DNA of 64,000 nucleotides from Neckera pumila (taxonomy: Eukaryota > Streptophyta > Bryopsida > Hypnales > Neckeraceae), in assembly GCA_963969595.1 (NCBI GenBank), contig OZ018418.1, positions 2,361,001-2,425,000 of the forward strand, given 5' to 3'. This document shows, piece by piece, positions 6,945 through 63,323 of the stretch. Position 1 is the first letter of the stretch. Each line of letters opens with the position of its first letter. The notes beneath the pieces are model-generated. The model was given only the letters and a program-made list of their open reading frames with translations, searched no databases and was not told the DNA's origin. A program made the position numbers and the translations under genes.

Positions 6945-8394
6945 GTGTTGGCTAATTGCAATCTTTCATAGCACAAGAAAGCACAAATCCTACCTTTAGG
7001 TGCTTAAAATGGTAAAACACCCAAAATGACTTGTGCATTGTTCCCAAAGGATTTTAACTTGTAGGTTCTTCAAAATTACCGGATCAATGCAGAACAACAA
7101 TCCCAAGACCAAAAGAATCTGGAATTGATAATCTGGATACTATACTTCCTTGTTCCTCTTCTCAGAAACAATACTTCTCACTCTTTCTCTCTTACTTTAT
7201 ACAGATCAACTTACGCCATCCGGACCTAGAAGAGTGTCATGATCCTGTACCTTTCTTGGATCCGGATCCGGTCACCGAGGTGACCAATTTCTAGTTTAAC
7301 CTCTATATCAGAGGGATCCGCTCTTGGGTTTAAAGAAAGGAACGTATACCCTACCCTTCAACTGATTATAGTGTCTAAAGACTTCACTTAAGAGAATACA
7401 ACAAAAGACAGAAAAGATAGGATGTAAGTTCTTCCTCACAACTACCCAAAAACTAATTTACACTAGCAGGTCACTCAAAAAAACCCTATAATCCCCACAT
7501 TACTACAACGGCAGACACTATCCACATGCAATTTTCATGGCAGAATTTGGTAACTAGATAACTAGGTGACCCCGACCACTTGCAGATCCCTCACTTTAGT
7601 TACGGCAGGACCTCATCAACACTTTAATTAGCATGCACCTGCCTTACTACAGAACACACCCAATCTAGGAGCAGCTATCCTACACGGAAGCTAACAGGTG
7701 ACCACACTCAGTCGGACTTCAATCCTAGTAGTCTCAGCTTTACAACCAACTCACTTCAATTCTTGGAATTGGATCTAGACAGGATCCAAGGGTTACTTCT
7801 CTGTCCAACACTTGCAAAAGCAGCTACCCATACTAATAATGGTTGAAACACTGATGGCATACCATTACAAAGCCAAGACTTTTCAGACTAGTTCTTGTAA
7901 ATTGGAAATCTAGAAAACAATTTACAAAGTAAATCAAAACAAAAGTAAGAACAATCGGGGCATCAAACCAAAGTCAGCCCCTAAATACTAACACCAAAGA
8001 ACCCTAAAAGGCCCCAGGGAACAAAATTAGAGGACAAGAGAATGACAGCTATCATTCCTTATCCTCCCCAGATATCTTCCTATTCTACTAGCCAATCTAC
8101 AAAATGTGGATCTCAGATCCTAAAATCCTAGAAAGTACAGTCCAGGTTCATGCAGCTGAAAAGCATTGTCAAGTAGCTTCCAAACACTCAAAAACTTGGA
8201 TTTTCACCTATTGATCTAGGCCTACCCTAAGCAACTTCCAAACTACTTCTTAGTCCACTTGGAAGAAGGTTCCTCATGCTTGGAGGCTCCCTTCTTAGGT
8301 GGCTGTTTCCTACTGGTAGACATCTTAGTTGTCTTCTTTTCCTTGGCTAAAGTCTTCTCCTTGAAGCTTGATGGAGAATAGTGGCCAAATCCTC

Positions 8395-9037
8395 TTACTC
8401 TTTTTCTTCCAAGTCCGATTGAGACTCAAATTTGGTTCTAGATCCGGATCCGCTGTCTTCCTTTGCTAATTGGTTGGGCGATTTGTTTTCCCCCAAATGG
8501 TAATTCCCTGAAGATTCTTCCCAAGCTTGTTTAGCAGTAACCTTTGCCTTTGTCGTGCTTAGCTTCTGCGGAGAAGGTTTAGAGCTTTTTCTCTGTGACG
8601 TCCAAAACTCAGGTTCTGTCTTCCAGATCTTGATCTTGGATCCGGATCCATGTACAGATCCTTCTCCTCCTTCTAACTTATGCTTGGAAGGGTCTTTTGT
8701 GGGTGTCTTCTCCTCCTCTTTGTCCTTCAACTTCACAGATGTGGGAGGTTTCCCAAAATCTAGAAGTTGACCCGCTTGTTGGAGAGCATTCCGGATCTCA
8801 TACATCAGCTCTTCAATAGTATTTGAGTACTCAACCAAAACCATGACGGTCTTTATTGCTGATTCCGGTCTGGCCTTGTGGATTTCCACATCAAAACACT
8901 TGGTCTTGTTCAGTACATCTTTGAAATGCCCTATAAAACTCTGGACCCTCCAAAGAGTCTCTTCTGACTCAGAGGAAAGTTTCCACACTTTCTTCCCTCC
9001 ATACTCTTTTCTAACTTCCGATGGAGTTTTTGGTTTT
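8395..9037 (-). pseudogene. C-terminal part of the element E ORF
   Basis: Continuous minus-strand coding from about 9,037 to the stop at 8,395. A segment with VQSFIGHFKDVLNK..CFD..I..A and EYSNTIEELMYEI matches the coiled-coil part of the element D protein (IRDFIKHPREVVNKANLF..EQV..E and YHKKMESTLEQL). A low-complexity Lys/Glu/Ser tail follows, with two GSGS motifs encoded by GGATCCGGATCC. The upstream part of the same protein lies beyond element D at 12,432. Function is unknown. I infer a coiled-coil, probably nucleic-acid-associated protein from charge and the family NLS, not from a recognised domain. Confidence 0.55.
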
Positions 9038-9042
9038 CATTG

Positions 9043-12000
9043 TGTTGTAGTACAGAAAGCACAAAATCCTTCTCTAAGGTCTAAATTGGCCCTAAAAAGA
9101 CTCGTGTATTGTTCTACAGAGATTTGGGTTGTAGTTCTCCTAATTGACCGGAATGTTACTAATCGGTATACAAAACAAAACCCCAAGTACTAGTCTAGAC
9201 CGGATCCAATTCCAATAACCCGGAACCGGAAAACACTTTCCTAATTATACTACCGATCTAAGGCAATTACTATATATATTTAAACTCGAGTTTAACCTCT
9301 GGACCAAGAGGGATCCGCAACTTTGGGATTAAGGAAGGAAGCTTAACTCCTACCCTCCGATTTTAATGTGTCAAGAGTTTCCACAGAATAAACTTGAAAA
9401 AGAAAACTTTGAAAAGAACATTGAGAACAAGACCTTCCTTACAACTAGACCGGAAGGGCTACGCAGGCTAGCAGGTCATGCAAGACGGTCTGAGTTCTCC
9501 TACCAAAGGCTACAACGACGAACTACCGGATAATCCACGATCTAGGTAGAGAAGGAGAGTCAGGAATAGTGGGAGAGCAATGAGTGCTTCTTGACAAAAG
9601 CCCGCTCTAATCTTCATAGGAAATCCTACTGTATTATGTTTGCTATTCAATCTCTCTAGGGACCGGATACTTCCTGCATCCGGGCTCACTCCCTCCTGAC
9701 CCAAGTCTGCAATCACACTGCTCAAACAAAAACACGGACAAGTGCAAAAGCGTGTAGCACACAATTGTGAATTAGAAAATACCAATGGGTTTTGCAAATA
9801 TTCTATTGAGAAAACAAAGTATGGAAATGAACCTGGATTACAACTAAAACCCGAGCTTAAATACTAAACTACCAATCTAACTCAAAAAGTGCCTATGTCT
9901 AATTTCAGCCAAGGGAATGACACGTTTCATTCCTTCCCGGACTGCTAGAGTAGTTGACTTAACTACAGTCCAAAAAGGTGTCCACCAAAAGTGGATCTTA
10001 GATCCTATAATTTCGGAATTAACCCGAGTCCTAACTCCTACTTGCCTAAAATTTTCCTACTGCCAAAATTAGGCCTGCAGCCCTACTCTCTATGCTACAG
10101 TCCTTTACCTACTTCCTATTCTTCTTTGCTGGTGAATCGCTCGTCCTGGCTGGTCACTTCCGGGCCACCGGCTTCTTTCCGGTCTGAAGCCTAGCAGCTC
10201 GTTGGGCCCGGAGTTGGGTCTTCTCTCTGGTTGCCTTGGCCTTCATCGCTCGAGTGTCTGCCAATGCCAGGTCTAGATCAAAGTAAGGATCAGACTCTTG
10301 CTCCGACCCGGACTCTTCTTCCTCCTCATCCGATGTGTCATCTTCTTCTTCCTCCTCCGGAATCCGGGCCGCTTTCTTCTTGGCCGATGGAGGTTCCGAA
10401 GCCTTCCTCTTGTGCACCATCGGGACAGGTTTCACCGCCTTGATTTGAGGTGTTGCTTCACCTTCAGTTGCCTTTCGGATTACTCCCTTCCCGTGCGATC
10501 CTGATGACTGCTCGCGACCGGCTTCCAATTTGGTCTTGACAACGGATTGGATGAGGCTAGTCATCCCTCCTTCTTCTCCAAATTGCACCTTCTTTCCAGG
10601 AGTCTTAGGAGAAGACTTAGAAGGTGAGAGGGTACTGAGTTGTTTGGTCTTGGCGCTCTCCCCTGGGACTGACCCGCCTGGACCGGTTGCTGGTTCCGGT
10701 CCCTATAACTTCGCCGGATCCAGCGCAGTCATTCCCGTTATCTCCACCGTATTGGGTTCCGGTTCGGTGACCTTGGTGATCTCCACCTCGGTCTCCTCCG
10801 GCTGGTTGGTCTTGGCCTCTTTGTGCTCCTCCGAAATAGATGGGTTAGGTAATACCTGAGGAATCTTTCCTTCCATCTTGTCTTCATTGGCTGGCTGCGA
10901 AGCTGGCTTGATTTTCGGTTTTGGTCTCAGTACAGGATCATCTTGTGGTCTGATTTCGCGCATTACTTCTCGCAGCTGCTCCAACGTAGATTCCATCTTC
11001 TTGTGGTAAGTTACCATTGCCAAAACCAACTTTGGGGCCAACTGCTTACGCTCCTCCATCACTTGTTCGTTGAAGAGGTTGGCCTTGTTCACCACTTCCC
11101 TTGGATGTTTGATGAAGTCCCGGATTTGGGATAGGGTATCCCGGGTCTGGGTGGAGAATTTCTTCTCCCTCTCCACTTCTTCATCCTTCTTCCGTAGCTC
11201 TTGCCTTAGTGCTGCCAGTTGGCTGGCTTGCTTGGCCAGCTCCACCTTTCCTTTCTGACTCTCCTTTTCCCGAATGAGCCGGCTTACTCGAGTTAAGGCT
11301 TGGCTAGGGTGAGTGACCCCTACAGTGGTGCAGATGGTCTGCATCACTCTCCTTTCCTTCATGTACCGGTCCTTGAAGTCACTCAGCTCTCGTGAAATCC
11401 TCTCGAGGGGCTCATCTCTCCAGACCGAATCACTTTCCTTGGTCTGTTCCTCTTCCACTCGATCTTGTCCTCTCGTATCCTTTCCCTCATTGTCGCCTTC
11501 CCTTTTTGACTCACTCAGATCATCCTTACCCTCTTCCTCTTCATCTTCCTCATCTGAGGACTCGTCCTCCATCACTTGTTCGTCGAAGAGGTTGGCCTAC
11601 TTGCCTGACAGTTCCCTCACCATGTCCTTGTTCTTGAAGCTCCATGGTTGGGTCAGGAATCCGGCACATCCCATCTGCTGCAGGTCTGCCCGTAACTCCT
11701 CTTTCTCACGCTCATCCTTTGGCAATGGAGGCGTCACAAATCGCAAAGCAACCGCGGATCCTTCTCCTTGGGTCGAGGCCATCTCTAACCGTGGCTGGAT
11801 GCTGCCGGTCTAGAACTTACAACCCAGAATAGGAGTATGCTCTCTCTCTCTCTGAGCTGTACAAAATTTACCACAAAACCTCTCTGCTTGCAGATCCTCC
11901 CTTCGCACTAAAGCTCTCCACAAACTCTCTCTCTGTACTTGCGCTCTCCTGCGTCAATACTAACTGGAGACCGGAAACAGGAAGCCTATACTCTCTCCAA

Positions 12001-12426
12001 GTTTACAATATGGGCAGGGAAATTTGGATGGCTAATATTTGAATAGCTGATCCATTAAGAGGGCCAACCATATTCCTTCCTAATGATTCCCTTAATTCAG
12101 GGTTTGCTTGTTAACCCAGCCCGTTAATTATTACCGTTTGTCCATGATTAGAACGTCCCCCTAGGGTTAGGTAGGTCACTGTTGGGATTTCAGTTCCCGA
12201 TTCCAATTTCCTGATCCTGTATAGGCTAATCCGGGTTCCAGTTCGGATTTTCGGTACCAATGATTAGCTGTTATATCTATTCTTGATCAGCCAACTTCTA
12301 GTTTCCGGTCCTAATCACTGTACGGTCTATAATCACTTTTCAAAACAAAAAAAATTACTGCAAAGAGGAATATTATCCTTCTATCTATAATTATATTTAC
12401 TAAGATAGGGATTCCAGGTTCCCACA
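9043..12426 (-). mobile_element. Element D: 3.4-kb ORF-bearing LTR-like unit
   Basis: Borders are exact. On the plus strand the unit starts TGTTGTAGTACAG and ends TTCCCACA, flanked by the 5-bp duplication CATTG at 9,038-9,042 and 12,427-12,431. TG..CA ends with a 5-bp duplication are the mark of LTR-retrotransposon integration. Reading the minus strand, the 5' end TGTGGGAACC resembles the TGTCGCAACC of A and B, and the 3' end TACTACAACA resembles their GCTGCGACA. There is no internal LTR pair, gag or pol. One ORF (11,782-10,154) fills about half of it. The element sits inside the ORF of element E. A CT-microsatellite lies just upstream of its ATG (about 11,840-11,857). Confidence 0.85.
10154..11782 (-). 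pseudogene. Element D acidic coiled-coil ORF, 543 codons with two TAGs
   Basis: One frame runs from ATG at 11,782 to the stop at 10,154, interrupted only by TAG at 11,597-11,599 and 10,703-10,705. The first ~60 residues match the start of the A and B proteins (PKDEREKEELRADLQQMGC, then QPWSFKNKDMVREL). The middle module seen in A and B (REVYNF, KDGYAVADC) is absent; the frame passes instead into an acidic run (DEEDEEEEGKDD), a long predicted coiled coil (LAALRQELRKKDEEVEREKK) and Pro/Lys-rich sequence. A second acidic run and a Lys/Arg/Ala-rich end follow. A motif close to ANLFDEQVME occurs twice, right after the first TAG and near residue 235. Both TAGs could derive from CAG (Gln). Function unknown; readthrough or simple decay are both possible. 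Confidence 0.6.
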
Positions 12427-12431
12427 CATTG

Positions 12432-13458
12432 GCCAGTTCTTTGAACTGGGTTTCCCACTTTTGGATATCCTTTTGCGAGATCAAACTTTCTATCATTTTT
12501 ACAAGCTCGGACACTTTGATCCCGCCAAGTAGCCCACAGACCTTTCTAACTGCGCATCTCTCCTTGTCTAAATCCTCTCAAATCTTCTCCAGGTCCTTAA
12601 TAATCTTCTCTAGAGGATCCTCTCGTTGGACTTCCGGTTCCGGAGAACCCTTCTGCTCACTCTGGGACCCTTTCTTCTTTTCAAAGGATGGGATCCTCTC
12701 CAAAGACTCTTGTCTTTTAGCTGACGATCCTCTCCCAGACTCCTCCTATCCTTTCTTCCTATCCTCATTGTCTCTTTCTCAAGGTGGAGTAATATTTAGT
12801 TTCAAAATAGTTGTAGCTGCTTTTAAAACTACCCTCTCCGGACCTCAAGCATTCCTAAATATTTGTACAGGTGGAAGAAGAATGGTCCAATAGAGGTTGC
12901 CTTGGTACCTCCCAAGGTGGCGACCATCTTCTGAACTAAGTCCCTCACAATACCTGCCCAAAAAACCTTCCTTTCTCCACTCAGTGCTTCGAATATTGTA
13001 CTAGCCTACGTTACTATTATCCGGTTTGGTCTCTCAGGGTATAGAATAGGAACCAGAAACTCTAACACTCTCTTATTCCTTGTGGACTTGCAGTCTGCTA
13101 TTGCATAGCCATCCTTTATATGAGGAGGATTGGAAAACTTACCCTCTGCGCATTTATCCGTCCGAGTGGCCAATCCTTCTCCAGTGCGCGGAAAGTTGTA
13201 AATTTTCTTCCATGTCTTGATGCTCCATTTGCCGGGAAGAGCCCGGGAGGTTTTGACCCACTCGTTTGACTACTCCTTCAACAGCTCCTGGATCATCTCC
13301 TTGTCCTTCAAACTCCAGGGTCAATACAGAAATCTGGCGATTCCAATCTGGACCAAATCCTCTTCCAACTGCCTCCGCTCTATCTTATCCTTTGGAATAG
13401 CCGGGTAGATGGTCTTGATTTTGAGCTGCACCGCCTCGTTACCTTCAACCTTCACCAT
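12432..13458 (-). pseudogene. N-terminal part of the element E ORF
   Basis: It begins at ATG 13,458 (MVKVEGNEAVQL). It matches the A/B protein along its length: AIPKDKIERRQLEEDLVQIG, then PWSLKDKEMIQELL, then KIYNF, KDGYAIADCKSTRN and LEFLVPILYPERPNRI. These are the counterparts of PWGF..RMVRE, REVYNF, KDGYAVADC and LLQFLVP in A. The frame has a TGA at 13,321-13,323, a TAG at 13,270-13,272 and later frameshifts. The 12,514-12,432 end (KDIQKWETQFKELAN) is coiled-coil-like and continues in frame across element D into ENQKLHRKLEKS at 9,037. That continuity confirms D landed in this ORF. Not functional as it stands. Confidence 0.6.
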
Positions 13459-14172
13459 TGCTCTCCAAGGGGCTGAAACTCCACTTGATCAATTCCTCAT
13501 TCAGTAGTCTACAAAAGAGAAACTCTGGAAAACTTCCTGCCTAGCACCAACCTTCTTCCGCTTTGTTGACTTCGGGAACGGAACTCTCTCTCTTCTATCC
13601 TAACTCAATTGCATGTTACCAACTCCACTATTGGCGCTACAGAGATAATCCTAATTCAAAGGCAAGAATGAAGATGGGAGTTCTGATCCCTAGAACTTCT
13701 CTCCAAAATTGAGCCTGCTGGGTTAGGGTAGCCTTTTTCCTCCTTCGTGCGAAAGATTCTAACCGATGAACGGTCATCCCTAATCTCCGATTAATATGGC
13801 CGTTGGATTTGACAAGCTCCCGACTAGCTTTCGGTAGGTGTTCCGGTACCCTTTGGTAGGTTTTGGTATCCGGCCTCGGTATATAGAGCAATCCCGGATC
13901 CAATCCGGTTTCAATTTTTGGTAAGAACAGGAAACATTAGCTCCTCCTCTTAACCTAATTATCTATTTACCACTACTCTCCTCGCTACTCTCCTAGCAAA
14001 GGAACATTAATTTTGGTAAGACTTTTAGTTTACTCTTGGATAAAACAAAATTTTTTACCAATACTAACTCCTTTGTCTACTTTCATATTTACTAGACTTA
14101 GTATAGTTTCCGGGCCACCACATCACTCCATTTTCAAATGTGAGTGTCTCTACAAATATTGAAGTAATGGTC

Positions 14173-15014
14173 TTAAATTTGACCTAGATTAGTCACATCC
14201 GGATCTGAATCTGATTCAGAGAATGCTTCTAGGTTGTAATGCTTGATCCTGGACCCATTGGTCCGGGTGCCAAGCCATTTCCCCTGAAGATCTTCAAGTT
14301 GGAGAGAACCATTTGGAAAGATCTGGCTTATCCAATATGGCACCATCCATCTTGTGTGTAGTTTCTCCAAAAACTCTTCATGACGGTTGTTGTATATTAA
14401 CACCAGTCCTCCTTCTAATACTCTATGATCTTTTGGCAATCTTGCATCAAAGTCCTTCTTTCTTTTGTGTTGAATAGCTATTGTATGCTCAAGAGTGTCA
14501 CTGCAAGCTTCCTCCAGATCCTCAATCACCAGTAACAGGAACTTTGAATCCATAACCTGATCTCCCCTTCTAGAGGGCATAATTCACAGGGTTTCAATCT
14601 CCATTTCTATCTTGTGCAATGCTATTTGTCCAAAAACAAGAAAGAAGGGACTATTCCCAATGGTAGTCTTATCTAAAGTATTGTAAGCACGGTCCCAATC
14701 CGTCTTGTGTGCGGAAACCGTCTTGTTCAAACTCTTCCCAATGATCCTATTTGCTCTCTCAGTAAGCCCATTTGCTTTTGGGTTGGAAGGAGTCGTCTTT
14801 GGTTGTTTGATCAGATATGTCCTTGTGATATTTCCAATAACATCAATGAGGAAATGGGTTTCTCTATCACTAGTCAGCTCCAAGGGATGTCCAAACCGCA
14901 TCATTATCTCATCAAACAGAAATGAGGATGCTATATTACTATTGTTCTTCCTAGTTGCCTTTGCCTCTACCCATTTGGTAGCGTAATCCATGACCAAAAT
15001 GATGTATGGGTGCA
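14173..15014 (-). pseudogene. Ty3/gypsy integrase core and C-terminal domain
   Basis: One frame of about 280 codons with a single TGA (14,584-14,586). The catalytic triad is visible: Asp in LVMDYATKWVEA, Asp in ELTSDRETHF, and Glu in NGLTERANRIIG about 35 residues later (DDE). The domain integrates retrotransposon cDNA in the nucleus. The C-terminal part has LPKDHRVLEGGLVLIYN, the KLHTRW..PY module and a final acidic tail. The N-terminal zinc domain lies at 15,442-15,710, cut off by a MITE. The core looks better preserved than the RT of the same element. Confidence 0.85.
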
Positions 15015-15441
15015 AATGAGCTAATAGGAGCCACTAAAGCTATATGCTTGTTCCTTTTGGAGGGTCCTATTGAAATTTTGATGAAATATTTTACTTAAAA
15101 ACGTCATCAATTTCATCAAGATTAGTTCTAAAAATTATTCAAAGTTGTCAGCAATGACAAAATCTATTCAAAACATCATCATTTTCATTAGAAAAGTTTC
15201 TAAATATCCTAGTTTGAAATTCAACAAAGGAGTGAAAAGCACTAGTTACATGTGCTTTTTTGTACTTGATTAAGATAACATGATGACATAATAAACTATA
15301 CAATGTTTCAACATGACACTATAACATTTATAATCTATGAAATGTATTTATTTTGGACAAATCTAAGAAAATGTGAGTTCTATAATCAATAATAGTTCCC
15401 AAAAGGAGTGGTTACAAAAAAATGGCTCCTATTACCTCATT
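15015..15441. mobile_element. MITE, 427 bp, inside the gypsy integrase
   Basis: The ends are inverted repeats: AATGAGCTAATAGGAGCCA at the left and its reverse complement with one mismatch at the right (TGGCTCCTATTACCTCATT). The interior is AT-rich and non-coding. It separates the integrase zinc domain from the catalytic core, which are contiguous in intact elements. A target duplication could not be settled, so the superfamily is open. Confidence 0.7.
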
Positions 15442-15710
15442 CTGACCCGTATCTCTTCTTTCAGGAACTGGCTGGATTGATTGGCCCTATGAAATCAATT
15501 CCCCACTTCTCAAATAGAGCAAGGGGAATTATGGGGGTAAGGGGCCAATGGATTCTGAATGAAGGTGCCCTCGTCCTCTGGCACTGATCACAACTGCCTA
15601 CAAAAGTCTTAACAACCCAGATCATGGAAGGCCACCAGTATCCAGATGTTTGGATCGGATTTACAATCGTAATGGTTGCAAAATGTCCACCTGAAGATCC
15701 GAAATGGAGT
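15442..15710 (-). pseudogene. Ty3/gypsy integrase zinc-binding (HHCC) domain
   Basis: The minus strand reads LHFGSSGGHFA, then GYWWPSMIW, then SCDQCQRTRAPS and GIDFIGPINPASS. This is the HHCC zinc domain and the link to the catalytic core of plant gypsy integrases. The domain is split by element A between Leu and His/Phe of its first motif; the missing upstream residues (ERKQVMSAL) are found at 19,029-19,060 on the far side of A. In-frame stops occur near 15,461. Confidence 0.85.
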
Positions 15711-15984
15711 TGTCGCAACCAGAATTTTTGGTTTTCCTCTGATTGTCTGAATAACGGAACGGAAACCGGTAATTAGGATCCATATCCGGTTAGAAGGGCA
15801 AAAGGAAACTACGGACAGGCAACGATAATCCAGTAAGGAGAAAACTGTATCTATTCCAATCAGAATGTTAGTATTCAGGAGCGGAATCATATCCGGATTT
15901 CACCTCCAAACGGATTAGGGTTGGACTGGATCGATATGGACCGGACCGGAAAAGGTCATGATGACGTGCCAGGGGTCCTGAGAG

Positions 15985-15991
15985 TATATAA
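15985..15991 (+). promoter_or_regulatory. TATA box upstream of the element A ORF
   Basis: TATATAA about 275 bp before the ATG. Element B has TACATAAA and element C (minus strand, 63,044-63,051) has TATATAAA at the matching place, each followed by a similar AAGGSTGRTC block. Conservation supports a promoter for the ORF. Confidence 0.6.
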
Positions 15992-16265
15992 GGGCTGGTC
16001 GTCCTCATTTTCACTCCTTTACTCCCCTTGAGCTCTAGAGCTGACCTTGAGCACTTTTTCGCCTCCGTCAGCGCCAGAGCCATTGATGTAAGTGCGCTTC
16101 TGGCTGGATGTGTCTGAGAGTGTAGGAAGAGTAAAGAACGTATGGGTTGCAAGTTTTGTGAGTGCTTTCCGGTTGAGATCGGACGAGAGGAAGTGAAGAA
16201 CGGGACGTGCGGCTAGGAGAGAGTGAAGTAGCGATCGGTAAGGGTCCAGCGGTCGTCTAGTGTCC

Positions 16266-17918
16266 ATGCCTCAGCTGCGTAAGACCAGACTGGGAGCTCC
16301 CAGTTCCTCCTCCGACGTCAAGCTCCGGAAGATAGTTCCGGTCATTCCTATGGAGGAACCGGCCCGGACTGAGCTGATGGAGGATCTCAATGCTATGGGG
16401 TGCCTCGTCCTGATGGATAAACCCTGGGGGTTTCATGAGGAGCGGATGGTGAGGGAGATCAAGTGCAAGGTGTCGAACGAGTTCGACAACACTCTCCGGG
16501 GCTGCCCGACCGAATGGGAAGAAGAATGGTGGAGGGAAGTTTACAACTTCCGGATGGGAGGTTCCCGTATGGCCGGGCGGAAGGACGAGTTCATCCATGA
16601 CAAGTTTCATGGGGAACCGAGTAATAAGGACGGGTACGCGGTTGCAGACTGTAAGAATGATCGGCATCGTAACCTCCTTCAGTTCCTGGTTCCGATCGTC
16701 CACCCGGAGAAGCCAACGAGGGTGACGATGATCCTCGGCAACACCATTTTCGGTTCCCTGAGCGGGGAACGGAAGGTGAACTGGGCCCGGATCTTTTCCG
16801 ATCTGGTGTCCCAGCTGGTGACGAGGATCGGAAAGAGTAGGGCCACTCCTTTGAGTCCCTACCTTTTCCACCTCTACCAGCGGAACCAACTTCTCACTCC
16901 TATTGAGGAGAAGACGTACGGTGTTCAGGAATTGATCTTGAAGTATGGAGAGTTGGGTTCGGATGACGAGGTGGAGGAGCAGACTGGATCCGAACCCGAG
17001 ACGGAAGAAGAAGAAGAGGAGGAGCCATCCCGACAAAGGAAGCGTCAGAAGACGACGCCTCCTCATAAGAGAAGACCCCCGTCAAACCCCCAGTCTACAC
17101 CAGAACAGGGACCGGATGTTGAGATGCCGGATCTCGAGAATCTGACCAACCCGTTCAACCAGTTAACGGTTGTCCTGGCCAGAATACGGGCAGACTGGGA
17201 GGTCAAGCGGAGGACTTTGAGCACTATCTCTGAACTGGTGGGTGCACCAGTCGATAGCGATTTGCCGAGTAAGGTGGGACAATTCCTGGCCGATCCGGAA
17301 GAGAACCGGAAACAGGAGACGGAGATCCATTGACTTCAGGAGGAGGTCGATACTCTGAGGGCGGACATGGTCACCCTCAAGGAAGACAAGGCAGCAGTCC
17401 GGGAGATGGCAGAGGCAACCCAAAAGGTGGCTGAGTCGGTGAAGGGCACTCTCGAAGAGTCCGGATCCACCGCAGTCAAGGCGGCCTTATTTGACCAAGG
17501 GGTGCACGAGGAGAAGAAGGTATCCGATTCTCGGATAGTTCGGATCCTCAACGACTTCACCGATCGGGTGGAAGCATCCTTAGTGGCAGCACGAGAGGCG
17601 ACCGAACGGATGGACATCAGCAGTCAGAAGCTGAACGGGTCCTTATTTTCCCAGGAAATCCACCTCTCGGACATTTTGATGCCGGATTCGTTTCCAGCAG
17701 GAGGATCGAGTCCGGGTGAGCGCAAGGATCATACACCCGAGTCACGGAAGAGTCACAGGAGACCTGGAATGGGGCAGCCAATTCAAATAGATTCGTCGCA
17801 CGGGTCAGATCTTCTGGATCTAGCTGCCGGTGAACGGAGCCGGAACTTGGCGGACATCTTCAATCAACTGCCCGAGGAACCTAAGAGTCCTACGCTGGGC
17901 GGGGGAATTGGAGAGTAG
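16266..17918 (+). pseudogene. Element A acidic NLS/coiled-coil ORF, about 550 codons
   Basis: ATG at 16,266 (MPQLRKTRLGAPSSSS) is preferred because B and C start at the same point. Visible parts: an N-terminal module with EEPARTELMEDLNAMGC and DKPWGF (residues ~30-60), a W/Y-rich stretch WEEEWWREVYNF (~80-95), KDGYAVADC (~125) and LLQFLVPIVHPEKPTRV. A Glu run (~240-255) leads into an NLS-like RKRQKTTPPHKRRPP (~260-275), then two predicted coiled coils (~300-480) and a short tail ending SPTLGGGIGE. One TGA (17,331-17,333) replaces the CGG (Arg) codon of copy B; otherwise the frame is open. No known domain was recognised. Charge pattern and NLS suggest a nuclear chromatin- or RNA-associated protein (inference). 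GC content is higher than in its surroundings. Confidence 0.65.
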
Positions 17919-18058
17919 GATAGGTAGTTAGTAGGAATGTAAAATATTTGTAAGTTAGTTAGGACCGGATCGGATGATTATCCGGTCTGGCTTGTTAGGA
18001 TCGGATCCGGATTTTCAACGCGGATTTCGAGGTCCCTTTTTGCTTTGTAATCAAGTTG

Positions 18059-18064
18059 TATATA
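18059..18064 (+). promoter_or_regulatory. Second TATA box in element A
   Basis: TATATA about 140 bp after the ORF stop, followed by a GC-rich block (CAGCCCCCGCTTGGGAGC). Element B has TATATAAG at 26,093-26,100 followed by AAGCCCCTGCTTGGGAGC. The conserved pair suggests this is the promoter that starts the retrotransposon transcript. Confidence 0.5.
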
Positions 18065-19028
18065 CGTCAGCCCCCGCTTGGGAGCTGGGAGTTCTTTCAC
18101 CTCATTTTTGCGTACGTCTTCTCTTGGCTTCTTGTTGTGTGTCTCTCCCGTGTGCGGCAGGGTCGTGAGGCGAGGAGTTAGGAAGGCACGTGCTAGTGTG
18201 GGTGTGATTTCTCCCTTTGGCGTGTTTGTTTTGGTCTTATGTGCAGGTGAGCCGGTTGCGAAAGCGTTGGGAGGGGATTCCAGTTCCTCAGTAGCTCTAG
18301 AGTTTAGAATTCTGGGCGAGACAACTGTTGTTAGGCTAGGCGGATAGGGAGGGATTCCTTAGTCGTGCTAGAACTCCTGGGTGTGAAATCCGGTTGAGTG
18401 TCCGATCTCCTGAGAGATCTCGCCGCCTCATTGGGCAAACGGAAGAACTTTAGTAGAGGTTGGAACGGACGGGTTCTCTTGCAGCCGCCTGGCTTTGCAC
18501 AGACGGAACGGGGCGCTAAGGTCGTTGTAGTATGGAAGGGCCGTACGGGGGGTCTTTGTGTGACCAATGATCCGGAGAGTTTTCTGGGTGGCTGTGAAGG
18601 ATCAAACCGGGTCCGGGTTAGTGTAGAGAATTGAAGAAAGAAGAAGTGGGTCTTTAGCCACTATAATTAACGGAAGAAGCGGCGGGCCTGCCACTCTCAA
18701 AAACAAGGGGCGATCCCTCTAATGGTGAAACAGAGGTAAAACTAAACCGGGTAGTAGTATGAGCGGATGAGAGTTGATCAGACCCAATCGGAATGTGGAC
18801 CGGATCGGAGAAATAAGAAAGGGTCTGATTGTAGTTCTGGGTGTTGTTGTGTTTCCGGTTGTGTGTTTGAACCGGAAGAGGAAATATAGGTACTGACTTA
18901 GCTTAGAGACCAAATACGGCTATCTACTTCACAGAATCTCGCGAGTTCGATCTTTAGAGTCACTTTGTTATACTATAAAGTGGTTTTTGGTAGTATAACT
19001 GGGAAATTGCTTGCCCTGTGCTGCGACA

Positions 19029-19847
19029 GGAGTGCACTCATCACTTGCTTTCTCTCCCTCTTCTCTAAATACCTTCTCAGCTGATTACCTGCCTCGATTT
19101 TGAACAATCCCCATGGATCAAGGAATAAGGTGCCACCTTGTGATGAAACAAGATCTTTTCCTCCATTGAGTATCCATCAGGTAGTCAATAGTATCTTGAA
19201 ACTCCAAAGTCGCACCCCCTCAAATGTGGTACACCACCGCCTCTGGTACAAATGCAATTTCAGATTCCAACCCCTCCAGTTCCTTTTCTGGGACCTCATC
19301 CGGAAATTTTTCTGAAATTCCCACTACTGCTTCCGGTCCTCTCTATCTGGAAAGGAAATTAGCATTGGCTTTTGCTTTGCCAGATTCACCACTACCTGGT
19401 AGTTGAATTCTTGTAGCAGCAGTATCCATCTAGCTATCTTTTTGGATAGATCCGATTTATTTACTAGATACTTAGGTGATTCATAATCCATATGGAAAAT
19501 GATCTTGTATCTTAGTAGATAATGCCAGAACTTCTTACAAGCATAAACCACAGCAAGGGCTTTCCTTACAGCTGTGGTATACTTCCTCTCAGTTAGACTC
19601 ATTTGCCTACTAGCATAATAGATAGGACACTCCTTCTTTGCCTCACACTGCCAAAGATTTACTCCTAGGCACCATCCGAATGCATCTATGGTTACATGGA
19701 ATTCCCAGATTCAATCCAGTGGAGACAGGATAAGAGCCTTTACCAATTTACTCTTCAAATCCTCAAAGGCTTTCAGTCTACTTTCTTTTTCAAGAGTTTA
19801 GTCAAAGGGCTAGCTAGTTTGGCATAACTTCAATGAACCTCCTATAG
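19029..19847 (-). pseudogene. Ty3/gypsy RNase H and connection domain
   Basis: Reading down from 19,847, the first residues YRRFIEV continue the RT thumb. FHVTIDAFGWCLG (RNase H start), CPIYYASRQMSLTERKYT, AVVYACKKFWHYLLRYK, and DYESPKYLVNKSDLSKKIARW with LLLQEFNYQVVV follow, the usual plant gypsy RNase H order. The domain cleaves the RNA strand of the RNA/DNA hybrid during reverse transcription. The frame has several stops. The region ends with ERKQVMSAL, interrupted by element A. The upstream side is interrupted by solo LTR S1. Confidence 0.8.
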
Positions 19848-21807: not shown

Positions 21808-22653
21808 TATAGTAACCAACACATTCTAGAAATCCGCAGATTTCTCTTATACAAGTAGGAGCTACCAAGACTAGAACAGCCTTGACTTTATCCACATCAA
21901 CTTCCAATTCTTGTTTGCTAACATGTTCTAGCAAAATCCCAGATTGCATTCCCATGAAGCACTTACCCGGATGTAATTTTAATCTAGTTTCCTTGCATCT
22001 GATGAAGGTCTTCTCCAATAACTCCAAGTATTGGTCTTGTTTGCTAAACACAGCAAAATTGTCAATGAACACCTCCAAGAAATGACTAAGGAAGTTGCGG
22101 AAGATATCTATCAATTAAATGAAACCCTGGCAGACCCAGATCTTCACCTTCCCACTATCTCCACCTTCTTGGAAACAACCACAATAGTTGAAACCCATTC
22201 TGTATTGTTAACCAGATAGATAAAACCGGCTTTCAACAATTTGTCAATTTCTTTCTATACCATGAGTGACTACTTCGGATTCAATCTATACTGACGCTGT
22301 CTAATCGGAACAACTCCATTAACTTGATCAATCCTATGTTCTCTTAGATCCGGTGGAATTCTGCTAAGATCTAATGGAGTCCAAGCAAATACATTTATGT
22401 ATTTCTTTAGCAGTCTAACATAGCTTCTTTTCTCATTTCTGCTCAGGGATTTCCCCAAGAAAATGGACTTCCCTGTTTCTATCTCCACCTTCTCATAGTC
22501 CGAGGGATTCACTATATTCTTGATTTGATCCGTTTCTGTTTCCTTTGACTGGACATGGAACTCATTCCATGGAACATTGGTCTTTCCCCTAGTCAAATTC
22601 ACAGTAGGTAAATTGCCTTCACAAATCTGTTTTCTCATCCAGTCAACTGACAA
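21808..22653 (-). pseudogene. Ty3/gypsy reverse transcriptase, internally deleted
   Basis: The upstream part has INVFAWTPLDLSRIPPDL and PIRQRQYRLNPK, then EIDKLLKAGFIY and NNTEWVSTIVVVSKK, the usual RT entry. It jumps from near 22,130 to IDIFRNFLSHFLEVFIDN, so about 80-90 residues are missing, including the segment with the first catalytic Asp. The active-site box reads FIDN where the family has FIDD or YVDD, a G-to-A change. After LKLHPGKCF and ICGFLECVGYY the frame meets S1. RT copies the element's RNA into DNA; this copy is inactive by two independent lesions. Confidence 0.85.
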
Positions 22654-23300
22654 TGGAACACTGGCTTTTCTAAGTGATCAGTCTTCCGTTTGACCTACTA
22701 TGGATCTTAAAATTGTATCAAGGACTTCTCCTTCCTTTGGTTCTCCTAGTTCCACTATGGATTTTGGAAATTCAAAATCTGCCTCAATCATCTCATCAAA
22801 TTCTTTAACAAAGTTCAAAAATATAGCATAAGAATCTTCTGGATCCGACCAATCCGTGGTGTATCCATCTGATTCACTTGTCTCTCCCTTATATTCCTCA
22901 TTTTTTCAAGGAATCCGGATATTGGATTTTCCAATAACAAATTCCTTGTGTTTGCAATCCACAATCACTCTTGCAGAATACAACCAAAGTCTTCCATGTA
23001 ACATAGGAAATGGTCTTCCTTTGTCTACTAGGATAATAGCAAAGTTAAGAAGATAGGTTACCTTTCCAATCTGGGTTGGTACTTGAGAGAGTCTTTCCAT
23101 CAGAAAACTCAGGATTAATTTGCAAATCTTAGAAATTGGTTCGTGGCTTTGAACATGGTAAATCCCAAGTCAAAAGTTGTATCCTCCAACATCAAATTTA
23201 CCCCGCATCTGCCATCTACCAAAACTTTAGGAATGGAACATCCTTCTATCTCCATGACAAGCTCTGGTGGTCTGTAGTCTTCAACTTGGACAAAGTTAAC
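22654..23300 (-). pseudogene. Ty3/gypsy aspartic protease region
   Basis: The minus strand reads PPELVMEIEGCSIPKVLVDGRCGVNLM at about 23,265-23,185 (quoted around the active-site VDG), followed by DTTFDLGF. At 23,000-22,910 it has GRPFPMLHGRLWLYSARVI and VDCKHKEFVIGK. This is the plant gypsy protease layout, with VDG in place of the common DTG/DSG, as in many Tat/Athila-type elements. The enzyme cuts the gag-pol polyprotein. The frame is broken between these blocks. Confidence 0.7.
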
Positions 23301-23754
23301 TACTACTGTTAGAAGCTTGAATCTTTGTTTCCTTCTCTTGGTCTAGGCATCCCAGATCAGCTTTTGATAGTTGGCATTATTATGTAGAAGTTACCCGTTA
23401 GTAACATTGGCCTTTTGATTCTTGATGTCCTATAAAATGTCATAATCGATTTCTCTCTTCCCTAGTTCAATGAAAATTGGGATGTCATTAAACCTAACAC
23501 TACTCCATGAATTGAAGGGTTAGATGGAGTAGGACAATATTCTCCCACCACTTCTTCATGTCTAGAAAGTCTATGAATTTGGATATGGGAATATTTACTC
23601 CATTTATCCCAGAATGTCTTGTAGATTGTACTGCGAACCCCAAGACCCGTCCATAGTTCCAATTAGCAATTGCCATGACGGATATGTGGCATTAGAGGGT
23701 GAAGAACCCCAACCCCAAGATTCAGGGTTGTCACATCAGGCGTCCCAAGGTTAC
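23301..23754 (-). pseudogene. Ty3/gypsy gag-to-protease linker
   Basis: Open minus-strand stretch (IYKTFWDKWSKYSHIQIH, HEEVVGEYCPTPSN) between the protease and the gag end. No domain recognised. Across element B the frame continues at 27,065-27,150 with a Cys-rich piece (RCPDCPSVRP), perhaps the decayed gag zinc knuckle. Confidence 0.45.
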
Positions 23755-24308
23755 TGTCGCAACCAGACTTTTTGGTTTTCCCTTGCTTATCTAAAAGTTG
23801 GAACGGAAACGAGTAATTAGAATTTGGATCTTGCTAGGAGGCAAAAGAAGAGTGAAGATAGACAAAGCTAATGCAATTAGGGGTAAATTGGATCTGATCC
23901 GGTCAGAGTATTAGTACTTAGGAGCGGAATCACATCCGGGATTTATCTCGAATCGGATAAGGATTCAACCGGATTGCTATGGACCGGACCGGAAAAAGTC
24001 ATGATGACTAGTCAGGGGTCTTGGGACTACATAAAGGTTGGTCATCCCCATTTCCGCTCCTTTACTTCCCTCAAGTTTTGGAGCTGACCTTGAGCACTTT
24101 AACGCTTTTGTCTGCGCCAGAGCCGTTATGTGCGTAGAAACTTAAGTGCAAGTGCATCTGAGTGCAAGAGAGGTCGAGATTTTGTGGGCTACAAGTTTTG
24201 TGTTGACTTTCGGTTGAGATCGGACAAGAGAAAGTGAGGAATGGGACGTGTGGCTAAGAGAGAGTGAGGTAACGACCGGAAAGGATCTAGCTAGCCAAGT
24301 CTGTGTCC

Positions 24309-25963
24309 ATGCCTCAGCTTTGCAAGAGTAGACCGGGAGCGCCCAGTTCCTCTTCAAAGATTAAGCTCCGGAAAGTAGTTCCAGTCATACCTTCCGAGGA
24401 ACCGGCAAGAACCGAGCTCATGAACAACCTCAACGCAATGGGCTGTTTGGGGTTGATGGACAAACCTTGGGGGTTTAGAGAGGAGCGGATGGTGAGAGAG
24501 CTGAAGGGCAAAATGTCAAATCAGTTTGACAATACTGTTTGGAGGCGCCCAACCGAGTGGGAAGAAGAGAAGTGGAGAGAGGTCTACAACTTATGGTTAG
24601 GGAGTTCAAGCATGGCGGCATGGAGGGTTGAGTTCATCCATGATAAGTTTCATGGAGAGCCGAGCAACAAGGACGGCTACGCGGTTGCAGATTGCATAGA
24701 CGACTGACACCTCCGCCTTCTTCAGTTCCTGATTCCGATCATCCACCCGGAGAAGCTAATGAGGGTGACGATGACCATTGGCAACACTATTTTGGGGCCT
24801 TGAGCGCAGAACGGAAGGTAAATTGGGCCTGGATCTTTTGCAATTTGGTGTTTCAGCTTGTGACAAGAGTTGAAAAGAGTAGGGCCACTCCTTTGAGTCC
24901 CTATCTCTTTCACCTCTACCAGCACAACCAACTCCTCACCAACACGGAGGAGAAGACATGGAATATTCAGGAATCCATCTTGAAGTATGGGGAGTCGGGT
25001 TTGGATGACAAACCGGAGGAACTATCCGGATCCGAATCTGAGACAGAAGAAGAAGATGAGGAGGAGCACCTTAGGACAAGGAAGCGAATGAAGATGACGC
25101 CTCCTCATAAGAGAGGAACCCCTCCTACCAACCGGTTGACTCTTGAACAGGGACCGGAAGTGGAGATGCCGGATTTCAAAGACCCGATTGATCTGTTCAA
25201 TCAATTGCCCACTATCTTTTGCAAAATACGAGCGGATTGGGAGATCAAGAGAAGGATCATCTCCAGTATCGAAGAGCTCGTGGGTGCGCCGGAAGATAGC
25301 AGGCTACCGGCTAAGGTAGCACAACACATCACCAATCCGAACAAGCACCGGAAGCAAGAGGCAAAGATTTGTCGGCTTCAGGAGGAAATCGACACTTTGA
25401 AGGCAGAGATGGTTGCCTTCAAAGAAGATAAGACTGCCGTCCGAGGGATGGCGGACGCAACACGGAAGGTGGCGGAGACAGTGAAGGCCACTCTCGGAGC
25501 TTCCGGATCCGCCACTGTCAAGGTGGAGTTATTTAACAAGGGACTTCACAAAGAGAAGAAAGTATCCGATTCCCGGATATCTCGGATCTTGACCAATTTC
25601 ACCAATCGGGTGGAAGCGACAATGGTGGCGGCAAAGGAGGTAGCCAACTGGATGGACGTCAGTAGCCAGAAGCCGAACGAATTCATATACTCCAGGGAGA
25701 TCCAAATTTTGGACCTCTCGCTGTCGGAATCGTTTACCGCAGGAGGATCGAATCCGAGGGAGCTCAAGGATCGGACTCTCGAATCAAAGAAGAGTCAACA
25801 AAGGCCTGGGCTTGGACAAGCGATCCAGCTAGACTTATCACCAGGATCAGATCTTCCGGATCCTGCTATCGGGGAGTGGAGCAGGAATCTGACAGAAGTC
25901 TTCAACCAACTACCGCGGAACCCAAGAGTCCTACACTGGGTGGGGGAGTTGCAGGGTAGGTAG
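24309..25963 (+). pseudogene. Element B acidic NLS/coiled-coil ORF
   Basis: Copy of the A protein. MPQLCKSRPGAPSSSS start, EEPARTELMNNLNAMGC, DKPWGFREERMVREL, WREVYNL, KDGYAVADC, a Glu/Asp run, KRMKMTPPHKR basic patch, QEEIDTLKAEMVAFKEDK coiled coil, and a tail ending at 25,963. It has one TGA (24,706) and one missing base in a T-run near 24,790 (TATTTTGGGG against TATTTTCGGT in A), which shifts the frame; after that it stays open for about 390 codons. That long open stretch, despite clear divergence from A, hints that the protein was under selection until recently. Function unknown. Confidence 0.65.
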
Positions 25964-26092
25964 GTAGGAATGTATTTTTTGTGTAAGATAGTTAGAACCG
26001 GATCGGATGTTGATTTGGTCTGGCTGGTTAGGATTGGATCCGGAAGTTCCGCGCAAATTTCCGGGGGCCTTTTTGCCTTTGTAAATCAGTTT

Positions 26093-26100
26093 TATATAAG
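26093..26100 (+). promoter_or_regulatory. Second TATA box in element B
   Basis: TATATAAG at the place matching 18,059 in element A, about 130 bp after the ORF stop and before the shared GC-rich block. Confidence 0.5.
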
Positions 26101-27149
26101 CAAGCCCCTGCTTGGGAGCTACAAGTCTTTTCGCCCAAATTTTGCTTGTACCTTCTATTGGCTTCTTGTTGTGTGTCTCTCCCGTATATGGCAAGCGCTG
26201 TATGGTGAGGAGTTAGGAAGGCGCACGTCCATTTGGGGGTGATTTCTCCCTATAGTTTTCTTGTTTTGATCTTATGTGCAAGTGAGCGGGTAGTAAAAGA
26301 GTTGGGAGTGGATTTCAGTTCCTCAACATTTCTAAGGTTTAGGTTTCTGGGCGAGACAGCCGTTGTTAGGCTAGGCGGATAGGGAGGGATTCCTTAGTTG
26401 TGCTAGAACTCCTGAGTGAGAAATCCGGTTAAGTGTTCGATTTCCTGAGAGATCTCACTGCCTTAGTTGGTAAACAAAAGAGCTTTAGTTGATGTTGGAA
26501 CGGACAGGTATACTTGTAACCACCTAACGATGTACAGACGGATCTTGGCGCTAAGGTCGTTGTAGTATGAGAGGATCGTACGGGGGGTCTTTGTGTGACC
26601 TATGATCCGGAGAGTTCTCTGGATTGCTATGAGGGATCAAATCGGATCCGGATTAGTATAGGAAATTGCAGAATAGAAAAATGGATCTTCAACCACTATA
26701 AGTCACGGAAGGAGTGGCAGGCTTGCCACTTTCAAAAGCAAGCGGCAAACCTTCTGATGGTGAAACAGAGGTAAGACTAAACCGGATGAGGATAAGAGCG
26801 GATATGAGTTGATCAAGCCGGATCGAATAGTTGGACGGATTGAGAAAGGAGAAAAGGGTCTGACTGTAGTTTTCGGTGTTGTTGTGTTTCCGGTTGTGGT
26901 GTTAGAACCGGAAGGAGAAAGATGGATACGAACTGAGCTTAGAGACTAAATAAGGCTAGATACTTCACAGAATCTTGCGGGTTTGATCTTTAGAGTCATT
27001 TTGTTATGCTTTAGAGTAGTTTTTGGGAGTATAACTGGGAATTTGCTTGCCCTGTGCTGCGACAATTACCAAACATCCCAAGCAGATGGGTGAACAGGAT
27101 CGGACGAACGGATGGACAATCTGGACATCTTGGGCACCGAATTTTTTCC

Positions 27150-28911: not shown

Positions 28912-30309
28912 TGTCATATGCGCAATCTAGGCGTAAGTATCCTTAACACAAAAATGTGCTAAGATAACATGAAATATTGTCCCAGGGAATTCTAGGTGTT
29001 ATTGCAAACTAAAGATATCCAGATCTCTTCCAAAACACACCCAAGCAATCCGTCTCAATGATTCACTCTCTTCCGGTTGCTACTACTTTCCAAAGTCTAA
29101 TCCAATATCTTTCCTTACAACCTTTCAGAATCCAATCCGAAATCCTTCCTCACTACTTTCTAGAATCTATCCTTACTACTTTCCGGAATCTAGTCCAGAA
29201 TCCGTCCTTGTCCGGATTCTGGGTTTTGTCTAGTCACACTCTGATTTTATATATCCCTGTTTCACCCTTAGGGGGTCCGCTGTTGATCTTTTAGAGGGGT
29301 AGGGACTTCACCACTCATAATCTTCACTCTCTCCACTAATATTTTAAGCAAACACATACAATCCAAACAGAGTTTGTAATAGAGAAAGAGAGGGTAGCAA
29401 TTCTCACAACTTTCTGGATGGCCAATCTGGAAAGTAGGTCACTTGGAACCACGTCCTGTTTCCTTCACTACAACAACAGATCAAGACTTCCGGAATCGAC
29501 AAAGAGGTGTATGTTCTAGAATCTAGACTGATCCGGTAGTTGGTAGGCCTTCCGGATGGTGGGGATATTCCGCTGGCGGTTGCTATCTCCGCACAAAATC
29601 CTCCCTAGGTTCCGGACTCGCATCCACTCCACTCTTTCCGGATTACTATTCCAGCAGTTTAAAGGCACAGTGCACTAATCCTCTTTCACAAATTTAGAAC
29701 TTTCACACAAACGCTCACTATCAATCAGACCCAGTCACTTAAGATCCAGATTCCTCCTCACCCCTACACACTCGCACTTACACACCAACACGCAAGTGAC
29801 TATAGATGCGATACCCAAGAGAATGATCCTAAGGTGATCTCTTGAGTACTTAGATTGAATGACAAGGGAAGGGAAATGAGAGGCCAGCAAGCCAGCCCGC
29901 CCTTAAATATAAAGCAAGGCGACCTAAAAGTCACCAAAAAATCAGGGCAACAGCCCAATTAACTATTCCACGAAAGCTATTGAGATCCTAAAAGTCCGAA
30001 ACTTGGCTACTCTCGAAAATTCCGGAATTTCCTAAAATTTTGAAAATCCCCAAAAAATTGGGACTTCCTAAATTTCCAAAATCTGGTCCATAAGTCCCTT
30101 CAATCTGGAATTCTCCGGATTCCGACTGGCGTTTACGTCTGGTTCCGGAAACTTATTTACAGTTTTAGTGTGTCTAGAAATTGCTTAATCTATAATCCTA
30201 AACTTTTGTTTCTACTTCCCTATTCCTATGCATAAAGTCAAAAAAAGTTATACTACTTTAACACTATTCTATTCTACTTTCCCTATTTTGAGTTTTGCAT
30301 ACCCTAACA
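28912..30309 (+). mobile_element. Solo LTR S2
   Basis: Begins TGTCATATGCGCAATC and ends GCATACCCTAACA; the flanks CCTAA/CCTGG are an imperfect 5-bp duplication. It aligns with S1 and S3, with a TATATAT box at about 29,248, about four copies of a 35-bp TTTCCGGAATCC-type repeat (29,085-29,215), and short TTCCTAAAATT repeats near 30,030-30,070. No coding region or second LTR is present. It interrupts a GC-rich minisatellite. Confidence 0.8.
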
Positions 30310-62207: not shown

Positions 62208-62781
62208 AAAATTTATGGCTCAATATAAGCTAGGACACCAAATCAGAAAAGATCCGGGCCAGTCTACTTTCTGGTCCCCGCTCAAGGCTCCAAAAATAGT
62301 AATGCCGATGGTCATTGTCACCCTCGTTGGCTTCTCCGGGTGGACGATTGGAATCAGGAACTGGAGAAGGCGGCGGTGTCGATCGTCTTTACAATCCTTG
62401 ACCGCGTATCTATCCTTCAGGCTCGCTGTTCCCCGAAACTTCTCACGGACAAATTCATCCTTCTATCCCGCCATTCCTAAACCACCTAACCAGAAGTTAT
62501 AGAACTCTCTCCACCTCTCTTCTGTCCATTTGGTTGGACACCGCCGGACGGTGTTGTTGAATTAATTCCACAATTCTTCTAGTATCACTCTCACCATCCG
62601 CTCCTCTCTAAATCCCCAGGGTTTGTCCATCAACTCTAAACAACCAAATCTTGCTAAGGTCCTCCATAAGCTGGGTTCTTGCCGATTCCTCGGAGGAGAT
62701 GATTGGAACCACCTTTCGGAGCTTAACCTCGGTTGTGGAGGAACTGGGTGCTCCCGGTCTATTCTTGCGAAGGAGAGGCAT
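62208..62781 (-). pseudogene. Element C ORF, N-terminal fragment
   Basis: ATG at 62,781 gives MPLLRKNRPGAPSSS, VKLRKVVPIISSEES and RTQLMEDL, close to A and B, then a frameshift before the counterpart of the MGC..DKPWGF module. Further frameshifts follow; later blocks (LPIVHP-like region near 62,340) are still recognisable at DNA level. Non-functional. Confidence 0.6.
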
Positions 62782-63323
62782 GGACACAGGCTTGACTAGT
62801 CGGATCCTTTCCTACTCTACCTCACCCTCTCCTAGCCGTACGTTCCATTCTTCACTTTCTCTCGTCTGATCTCAATCAGAAAACAAAACAAAACCTGCAG
62901 CACATACATTCTCGACCTCTCACGCACTCACACTTAAATTCTCACGCACACAACGGCTCTGGCACAGACGTAGGCATAAAAGCGCTTAAGGTCAGCTCCA
63001 AAAATCGAGGAAAGTAAAGGAGTGAAAACGGGGAAGATCAGCCTTTATATAGTCCCAGGACCTAGACTGGTCATCATGACCACTTCCAATCCGGTCCTTA
63101 GCAATCCGATTCAACCCTAATCCAATCCAAGATAAGTTTTGGATATAATTCCGCTCTTAAGTGCTAATACTCTGACCAGATCAAATCCAGTTTACCCCTT
63201 TCTGCATTAGCTTTGTTTATCTCCATTTTTCTTTTGCCTCTTAGTCAAATCCAGATTCTAATTACTGGTTTCCGTTCCAACTTCTAGGTAAGCAAGAAAA
63301 AACCAAAAATTTTGGTTGCAACA
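62208..63323 (-). mobile_element. Element C: truncated ORF-bearing LTR-like unit
   Basis: The reverse complement starts TGTTGCAACCAAAATTTTTGG at 63,323 and follows A and B through the TATA box (63,044-63,051) and the ATG. It stops abruptly at about 62,208 inside the ORF (counterpart of WARIFSDLVSQL). The 3' two thirds are missing. Being truncated, it has no paired duplication. Confidence 0.8.

Follow-up and report, generated by a model that had tools for sequence, protein, structure and literature searches.

The superantigen gene sag of mouse mammary tumour virus (MMTV), a betaretrovirus of mice, sits within the long terminal repeat (LTR), and its product is a membrane superantigen. To our knowledge this is otherwise the LTR-borne protein gene that has been described, and for plants none is apparent in the titles and abstract starts listed by searches of the open-licence PMC literature. 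The subject here is a stretch of 64,000 nt from Neckera pumila (assembly GCA_963969595.1, contig OZ018418.1, forward strand 2,361,001-2,425,000), which we call the window and number from its first letter, and in which a family of units of about 3.3 kb is considered as LTRs of a Ty3/gypsy retrotransposon that carry a protein gene of their own.

Other described systems bear on this one. The anti-silencing VANC proteins of Arabidopsis bind dense short motifs in their own VANDAL transposon and reverse its silencing (PMC5735166; PMC10398659), the VANC21 sites being mainly noncoding and in tandem repeats (PMC5735166). Extra open reading frames (aORF or eORF) of Athila, Ogre, Retand and SIRE lie in the internal region, mostly between pol and the 3' LTR, and that of Retand yields the possibly DNA-binding product TRP28 (PMC7264820; PMC6317226; PMC11963269). 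The Cassandra LTR holds a gene-derived unit, the 5S promoter (PMC10853983), and in the non-chromovirus Ty3/gypsy elements Phygy and Selgy the polyprotein almost fills the internal region, with Phygy preferring NCGN targets (PMC6317226). A maize candidate for an LTR-borne gene was set aside, the gene lying within an LTR retrotransposon and not within the LTR itself (PMC1560396).

The units of the A family, called so after unit A of the window, are with near certainty the LTRs of a Ty3/gypsy retrotransposon, and among the copies read they are mostly solo. One line of support is the C2 element, elsewhere in the assembly, in which two unit copies of the same orientation enclose 5.9 kb and the outer flanks share the 5-bp duplication GCACT. 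Its LTRs are 3,321 bp each and show 59 differences (98.2% identical); a primer-binding-like site, TGGCGCCGCTGCCGG, lies 10 nt after the 5' LTR, and a purine tract with a G-run, GATGAGGGGGGGGGGGTAA, precedes the 3' LTR. Presumably TGGCGCCGCTGCCGG resembles the primer sites of plant Athila/Tat elements. The gag frame of 553 residues matches Pfam Retrotrans_gag and a zf-CCHC zinc knuckle, and the pol frame follows it with RVT_1, RT_RNaseH and Integrase_H2C2, which is the Ty3/gypsy order; neither a chromodomain nor a second RNase H, such as the additional archaeal-type one that marks the Tat clade (OTA), was reported by Pfam (E <= 0.01) in the three internal frames scanned, a search that can miss such domains. 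The C5 element again carries the unit at both ends, the 3' one lying past a nested copy that is inverted, solo and flanked by the duplication GTATG, and the C5 internal region is 92.9% like that of C2 over 5.4 kb. A matching outer duplication was not seen in the flanks of C5, because the 3' end has decayed. A preliminary description of this DNA had proposed from the unit ends that these were LTRs, and the gag-pol elements with a 3.3-kb unit at both ends bear this out; its alternative of a non-autonomous element using only terminal motifs is not needed for the A family, because gag-pol members exist.

The assembly (339.5 Mb in 18 contigs) was searched with unit A, 40 of 818 first-look candidates being scored, and 39 of the 46 returned match rows, A included, span unit positions 1-3318. 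Thirty-five distinct full-length copies were read, A among them, a non-random sample since they were picked from the best matches. Exact 5-bp duplications stand directly at the ends of 26 of the 35, and these single units are therefore solo LTRs; the duplications are diverse in sequence. Two of the 26, L035 and L036, have identical flanks and so represent one insertion that was later duplicated. Nine copies are without an exact duplication: L009 and L010, which are the two LTRs of one complete element; L013 and L044, each followed by the same internal start TACAAAAA; L034 and L037, with four of five duplication bases matching; and L016, L024 and L030. L044 (G000:C1:6399-9733), near a contig end, is preceded on the left by purine-rich sequence and followed on the right by the internal start, an arrangement that may be that of a tandem element, and the left flank of L024 is likewise tract-like. 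Some copies are nested in copies (L013/L014, L016, L017, L052). A protein search of the assembly, with 78 of 2,848 candidates scored, kept 10 loci, all in A/B-like units (that of L050 incomplete) and with exact duplications at 8 of them, L051 and L053 repeating L039 and L016. The copies read are thus not inner stretches of some other unit: they stand singly between 5-bp duplications (the 26 of 35) or at the two ends of a gag-pol element.

Five related units lie in the window:

15711..19028, + strand: unit A, a solo LTR of 3,318 bp with ends TGTCGCA...TGCGACA; copies elsewhere in the genome match positions 1-3318

15706-15710 and 19029-19033: 5-bp duplication GGAGT of unit A, exact on both sides

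23755..27064, + strand: unit B, read as a solo LTR of a sister family, with ends TGTCGCA/TGCGACA and duplication GTTAC/ATTAC, 4 of 5 bases matching

62228..63323, - strand: unit C, a fragment that comprises the initial 1.1 kb of a B-like LTR and, with it, the gene's N-terminal part

9043..12426, - strand: unit D, solo LTR-like, of a more distant family and nested in E; starts TGTGGG, ends CAACA, with the duplication CAATG on both sides

12427..14122, - strand: unit E, part 1, the start of a putative 3' LTR with the promoter side and the N-terminal part of the gene

6946..9042, - strand: unit E, part 2, the C-terminal part of the gene and the 3' noncoding part

E thus extends on the minus strand from 14,122 to about 6,946, with D interrupting it. 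A and B align over their full length at 76.6% identity; D and E have short noncoding stretches in common (62.6-69% alike), and one stretch of E matches the 3' noncoding part of A (E 7e-4). With tblastn the LTR protein family is detected in all five units, and by hhalign the family profile is also matched by the C-terminal half of D (E 3.2e-13) and that of E (E 8.3e-6). Units B to E we infer to be LTRs of related families. The relatedness of five units of the TGT...ACA type, as first described, holds on the alignments of A, B and C and on the protein matches in all five. The 5-bp duplications reported then at A, B and D are exact for A (GGAGT) and D (CAATG), while B shows only 4 of 5 bases (GTTAC/ATTAC). 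One protein of about 540-550 residues had been given to each unit; the same family is indeed in all five, but no unit of the window has an intact frame, and C is a fragment.

Within the LTR the gene lies between noncoding parts that could serve it as promoter and terminator:

15985..15991, + strand: TATA box TATATAA of the LTR promoter, about 280 nt before the start codon

16266..17918, + strand: LTR gene of A, a frame of 551 codons interrupted by a single stop at 17331-17333

18044..18051, + strand: TTTGTAAT, some 125 nt beyond the frame, a candidate for the poly(A) signal region

17919..19028, + strand: 3' noncoding part of LTR A, in which A units and B have diverged less than at third codon positions

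24309..25960, + strand: LTR gene of B, its frame shifted near 24790

The gene frame starts at LTR position 556, TATAWAW occurs between LTR positions 200 and 330, near 275, in 33 of the 35 copies, and TTTGTAAT, which may belong to a poly(A) signal, is present in 19 of them. Divergence between A units and B is 0.26 in the 5' noncoding part and 0.2005 in the 3' noncoding part, as against 0.3836 at third codon positions, and because the noncoding parts diverge less than these positions both appear to be constrained as well. Each LTR would then be a self-contained cassette of promoter, gene and terminator; a full element would hold two copies of the gene, of which a solo LTR would keep one after recombination with gag-pol lost, and the genomic RNA would carry the LTR frame ahead of gag, given its starts and ends as supposed here. 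That solo LTRs of about 3.3 kb should have a gene inside them is supported by the duplications, by the gag-pol elements and by the ratios of nonsynonymous to synonymous divergence (dN/dS).

The LTR gene is very probably a functional protein gene. Between the fully open copies L003 and L039 dN/dS is 0.145, and comparison of these two with L009, whose open frame covers 506 codons, yields 0.183 and 0.191. B compared with four A copies gives 0.185-0.216, C with the same four 0.113-0.142, and B with C 0.308; across all pairings of the 35 copies the median is 0.247. Between the C2 and C5 elements the values are 0.233 for gag and 0.216 for the main pol frame, with 0.146 for a short integrase stretch of few codons. 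The codon-position bias expected of a real gene is found, A and B differing by 0.224, 0.160 and 0.384 at codon positions 1, 2 and 3, and among the 35 copies third positions differ by 0.095 as against 0.049 and 0.042 at the other two. The start codon is retained in all 35 copies, a frame shift occurs in 3 and the frame is fully open in 4; 21 of the 78 scored matches of the assembly protein search have no stop. None of the window's units has an intact frame because A has its stop and B its shift, D has lost most of the N-terminal module (so that its relation rests on protein comparison), E is broken by stops and by the insertion of D, and C is a fragment; open copies are present elsewhere in the genome.

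The protein of about 550 residues begins with a conserved domain, some 210 residues long and invariant at many positions, continues through a disordered acidic stretch with a patch of the KRQK/PPHKR type resembling a nuclear localisation signal, forms long helices at 301-465 (a coiled coil) and ends in a disordered tail. This architecture, already outlined in the preliminary description, is borne out in the family, with D again the member without most of its N-terminal module. In the best full-length model the block means of the predicted confidence score (pLDDT) for the N-terminal domain are 79-98. Profile search did not place the protein in a known family, Pfam giving nothing above its cut-off in the members tabulated and weak matches only; the PDB searched by sequence yielded no convincing chain (best E 0.18), and Foldseek returned 0 matches at E <= 0.001 in PDB and in BFVD. 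VIA-align rows fall mainly on the coiled coil (residues 348-470) and barely cover the rest of the protein. Of 2,001 candidates in a protein database search, 277 have E <= 1; the 120 of these that are listed all reach E <= 1.8e-87 and, compared as protein sequences, are 43-68% identical to the query piece, and 42 of the 120 are 540-579 residues long. No relatives were found in the genome_contigs and viral_contigs databases.

The DNA that encodes this protein is filled with a short motif. The top 6-mers are centred on CCGG in A (ATCCGG), B (ATCCGG) and D (CCGGTC), and WCCGGW occurs in the 5' noncoding part at 10.8 per kb in A and 9.1 in B, in the 3' noncoding part of both at 7.2, and in the internal region at 6.8 (gag 10.2, pol 5.5). 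Compared with dinucleotide shuffles, the motif is several-fold in excess in gag, pol and the noncoding parts. Its density is 0.3-0.8 per kb in three other stretches of the window, and in the copy flanks, with one L003 flank that holds another unit excluded, 8 sites fall in 22,350 bases (0.36 per kb). Retention of CpG was compared in four site tests, with p values uncorrected. In the noncoding parts CpGs of B are kept in A at 13 of 13 WCCGGW positions as against 33 of 48 others (p 0.015), and those of A in B at 12 of 15 as against 35 of 80 (p 0.0098).

A dispersed repeat of the window, in three copies 75-82% alike (28912-30304, 56312-57850 and 19852-21799), begins near CGCAGTCTAGGCGTAAGTATCC and finishes near TTTTGAGTTTTGCATACC; its copy at 19852-21799 has 1.0 WCCGGW per kb.

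Because a nuclear-looking, non-enzymatic protein under purifying selection is encoded in motif-filled DNA, we tentatively read it, on the analysis of protein and motif together, as a nuclear, WCCGGW-binding regulator of its own family, at somewhat less than even odds. With its basic patch and acidic stretch the product would enter the nucleus, the coiled coil serving for dimerisation; it would bind the WCCGGW sites that fill the LTR and the internal region and, once bound, would keep the element's promoters open or active against host silencing. Its mode of action would resemble that of the VANC proteins of VANDALs, but with the gene encoded inside an LTR. The combined explanation of LTR anatomy, gene and regulator we place at roughly 0.5. 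The further step, in which the LTR is an autonomous anti-silencing or activator gene and the solo LTRs form a trans-acting reservoir that keeps the family expressible, is doubtful.

Several observations weigh against such a regulator. No DNA-binding domain is recognised in the protein by sequence or fold; the mean pLDDT of the five full-length models runs from 71.8 down to 56.5, and the N-terminal domain modelled alone is poor (mean 54.7). D and E are sparser in WCCGGW (2.8-5.4 per kb), and the A frame holds 7 sites as against 2.7 by shuffle, with shuffles reaching 7. The CpG tests in the coding frame are weaker (p 0.20 and 0.050), within the A family noncoding motif CpGs are kept at 0.855 as against 0.812 for others, and of the noncoding CCGGs that are not part of a WCCGGW few persist from B to A (29 of 105 cells). 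The motif stands in coding parts also, unlike the VANC21 sites, and it is dense outside the family: the repeats at 28,912-30,304 and 56,312-57,850, which are without the LTR gene, reach about 8 per kb, and TCCGGA heads the 6-mers of 27,065-62,207 (27 as against 4.6 expected). Were the regulator real, unrelated repeats with WCCGGW may exploit the LTR protein.

Among the competing accounts, that of an RNA-binding or particle accessory protein (a Rev-like export, packaging or nuclear-entry factor), with the DNA motif incidental or acting at the RNA level, survives best and is nonetheless unlikely. It would suit a gene that the genomic RNA, given the TATA box upstream of the frame, would carry as its first cistron, a protein with basic patch and coiled coil, and a motif that is also dense in the internal region, at 10.2 per kb in gag and 5.5 in pol; the palindromic core of the motif, with its CpG preferentially kept between A and B in the noncoding LTR, suits double-stranded DNA better, and no RNA-binding family is among the Pfam matches of the LTR protein. 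That the protein steers integration, tethering the integrase complex to chromatin such as motif-rich existing copies, seems quite improbable: copies do nest in copies, as at L013/L014, L016, L017 and L052, and A sits inside a related gypsy element in the window, yet the duplications are varied in sequence and nesting is common anyway in regions rich in transposable elements. That the frame is a captured host gene, or a passive passenger that does nothing for the element, is very improbable. The lack of a known family and the 31 of 35 copies that are not fully open would fit it, but dN/dS of 0.145-0.216 for the named pairs, with the median of 0.247, is similar to that of gag (0.233) and pol (0.216), the same protein recurs in units A, B, D and E and at 540-579 residues in 42 of the 120 listed relatives, and stops in old solo LTRs are the decay to be expected. 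A class II or other non-autonomous element with TG...CA ends in place of LTRs is scarcely credible and was rejected, for although most of the copies read stand alone, with no internal genes, and the ends form short inverted repeats (TGTCGCA/TGCGACA), the unit stands at both ends of two gag-pol elements, C2, with its GCACT flanks, primer-like site and purine tract, and C5.

Returning to the LTR reading, the window also has remnants of a gypsy element to which E would belong:

14173..15033, - strand: integrase remnant of the gypsy element whose putative 3' LTR is E; rve at E 0.01, below its cut-off, and 68.8% alike to the C2 internal region

19290..19783, - strand: RNase H remnant of the same gypsy element as the integrase remnant, with A between them; RT_RNaseH at 1.5e-24

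22128..23431, - strand: further gag-pol remnants of this element, 68-69% alike to the C2 internal region

The C2 internal region matches the minus strand of the window at 68-69% over 23,431-22,832, 22,424-22,128, 19,783-19,290 and 15,006-14,690, so that the gag-pol remnants are in gypsy order, split by A and adjoined by B. In a frame at 14,583-14,173, 99 residues align at 51% identity with the C2 element's integrase end; the stop of this frame lies 50 nt before the start of E, a link that the preliminary description had missed. Because this gypsy integrase frame ends there on the same strand, the best reading makes E the 3' LTR of a related gypsy element; a 5' LTR partner was not found within the window.

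Elsewhere in the window, 40262-42573 is taken up by overlapping tandem repeats that have degenerated and are roughly 65-80% alike. A 123-residue open stretch lies at 1795-2166 and presumably resembles a plant transposon-type protein, and one of 148 residues at 35166-35609 has a sub-threshold BED zinc-finger match (E 0.046). No tRNA genes were found in the window. In the assembly two RuBisCO small-subunit loci of opposite orientation, each matched in two pieces, lie at G000:C1:36440030-36452245; these split matches support a green plant as host and speak against a rust fungus.

Solo LTRs are usually seen as gene-free debris; here they hold a conserved gene with its own TATA box, and the recombination that strips gag-pol from retrotransposons leaves the LTR gene in place. 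It so becomes testable whether retroelements sustain trans-acting regulators through dead copies. The likeness to MMTV sag is that of a protein gene within an LTR, but the product here is nuclear-looking, its gene is downstream of a TATA box and the element is a plant Ty3/gypsy and not a vertebrate retrovirus; no Sag family is among the Pfam matches listed for the LTR protein, with no direct comparison with Sag. As in the Phygy and Selgy elements the polyprotein almost fills the internal region, and Pfam reports neither chromodomain nor second RNase H in the three internal frames scanned, while the NCGN preference of Phygy does not recur, CG being present in 1 of the 26 exact duplications, which are varied 5-mers. 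Cassandra differs in having RNA-gene sequence in its LTR and in being non-autonomous, no LTR protein being described there. With the aORF and eORF elements there is in common an extra gene of unassigned function in plant LTR retrotransposons, whereas the present gene lies within the LTR, in sense orientation, and occurs in solo LTRs. Closest to the proposed action are the VANC proteins, likewise encoded by an element whose own DNA is dense in a short motif, although here the motif is not exclusive to the element. No Pfam family above cut-off in the members tabulated relates the LTR protein to VANC, with no direct comparison with a VANC protein, and VANDAL is a DNA transposon, whereas here the element is an LTR retrotransposon, the motif is dispersed and also coding, and its binding is predicted. 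What the comparison makes testable is sequence-specific anti-silencing in LTR retrotransposons, as in VANDALs.

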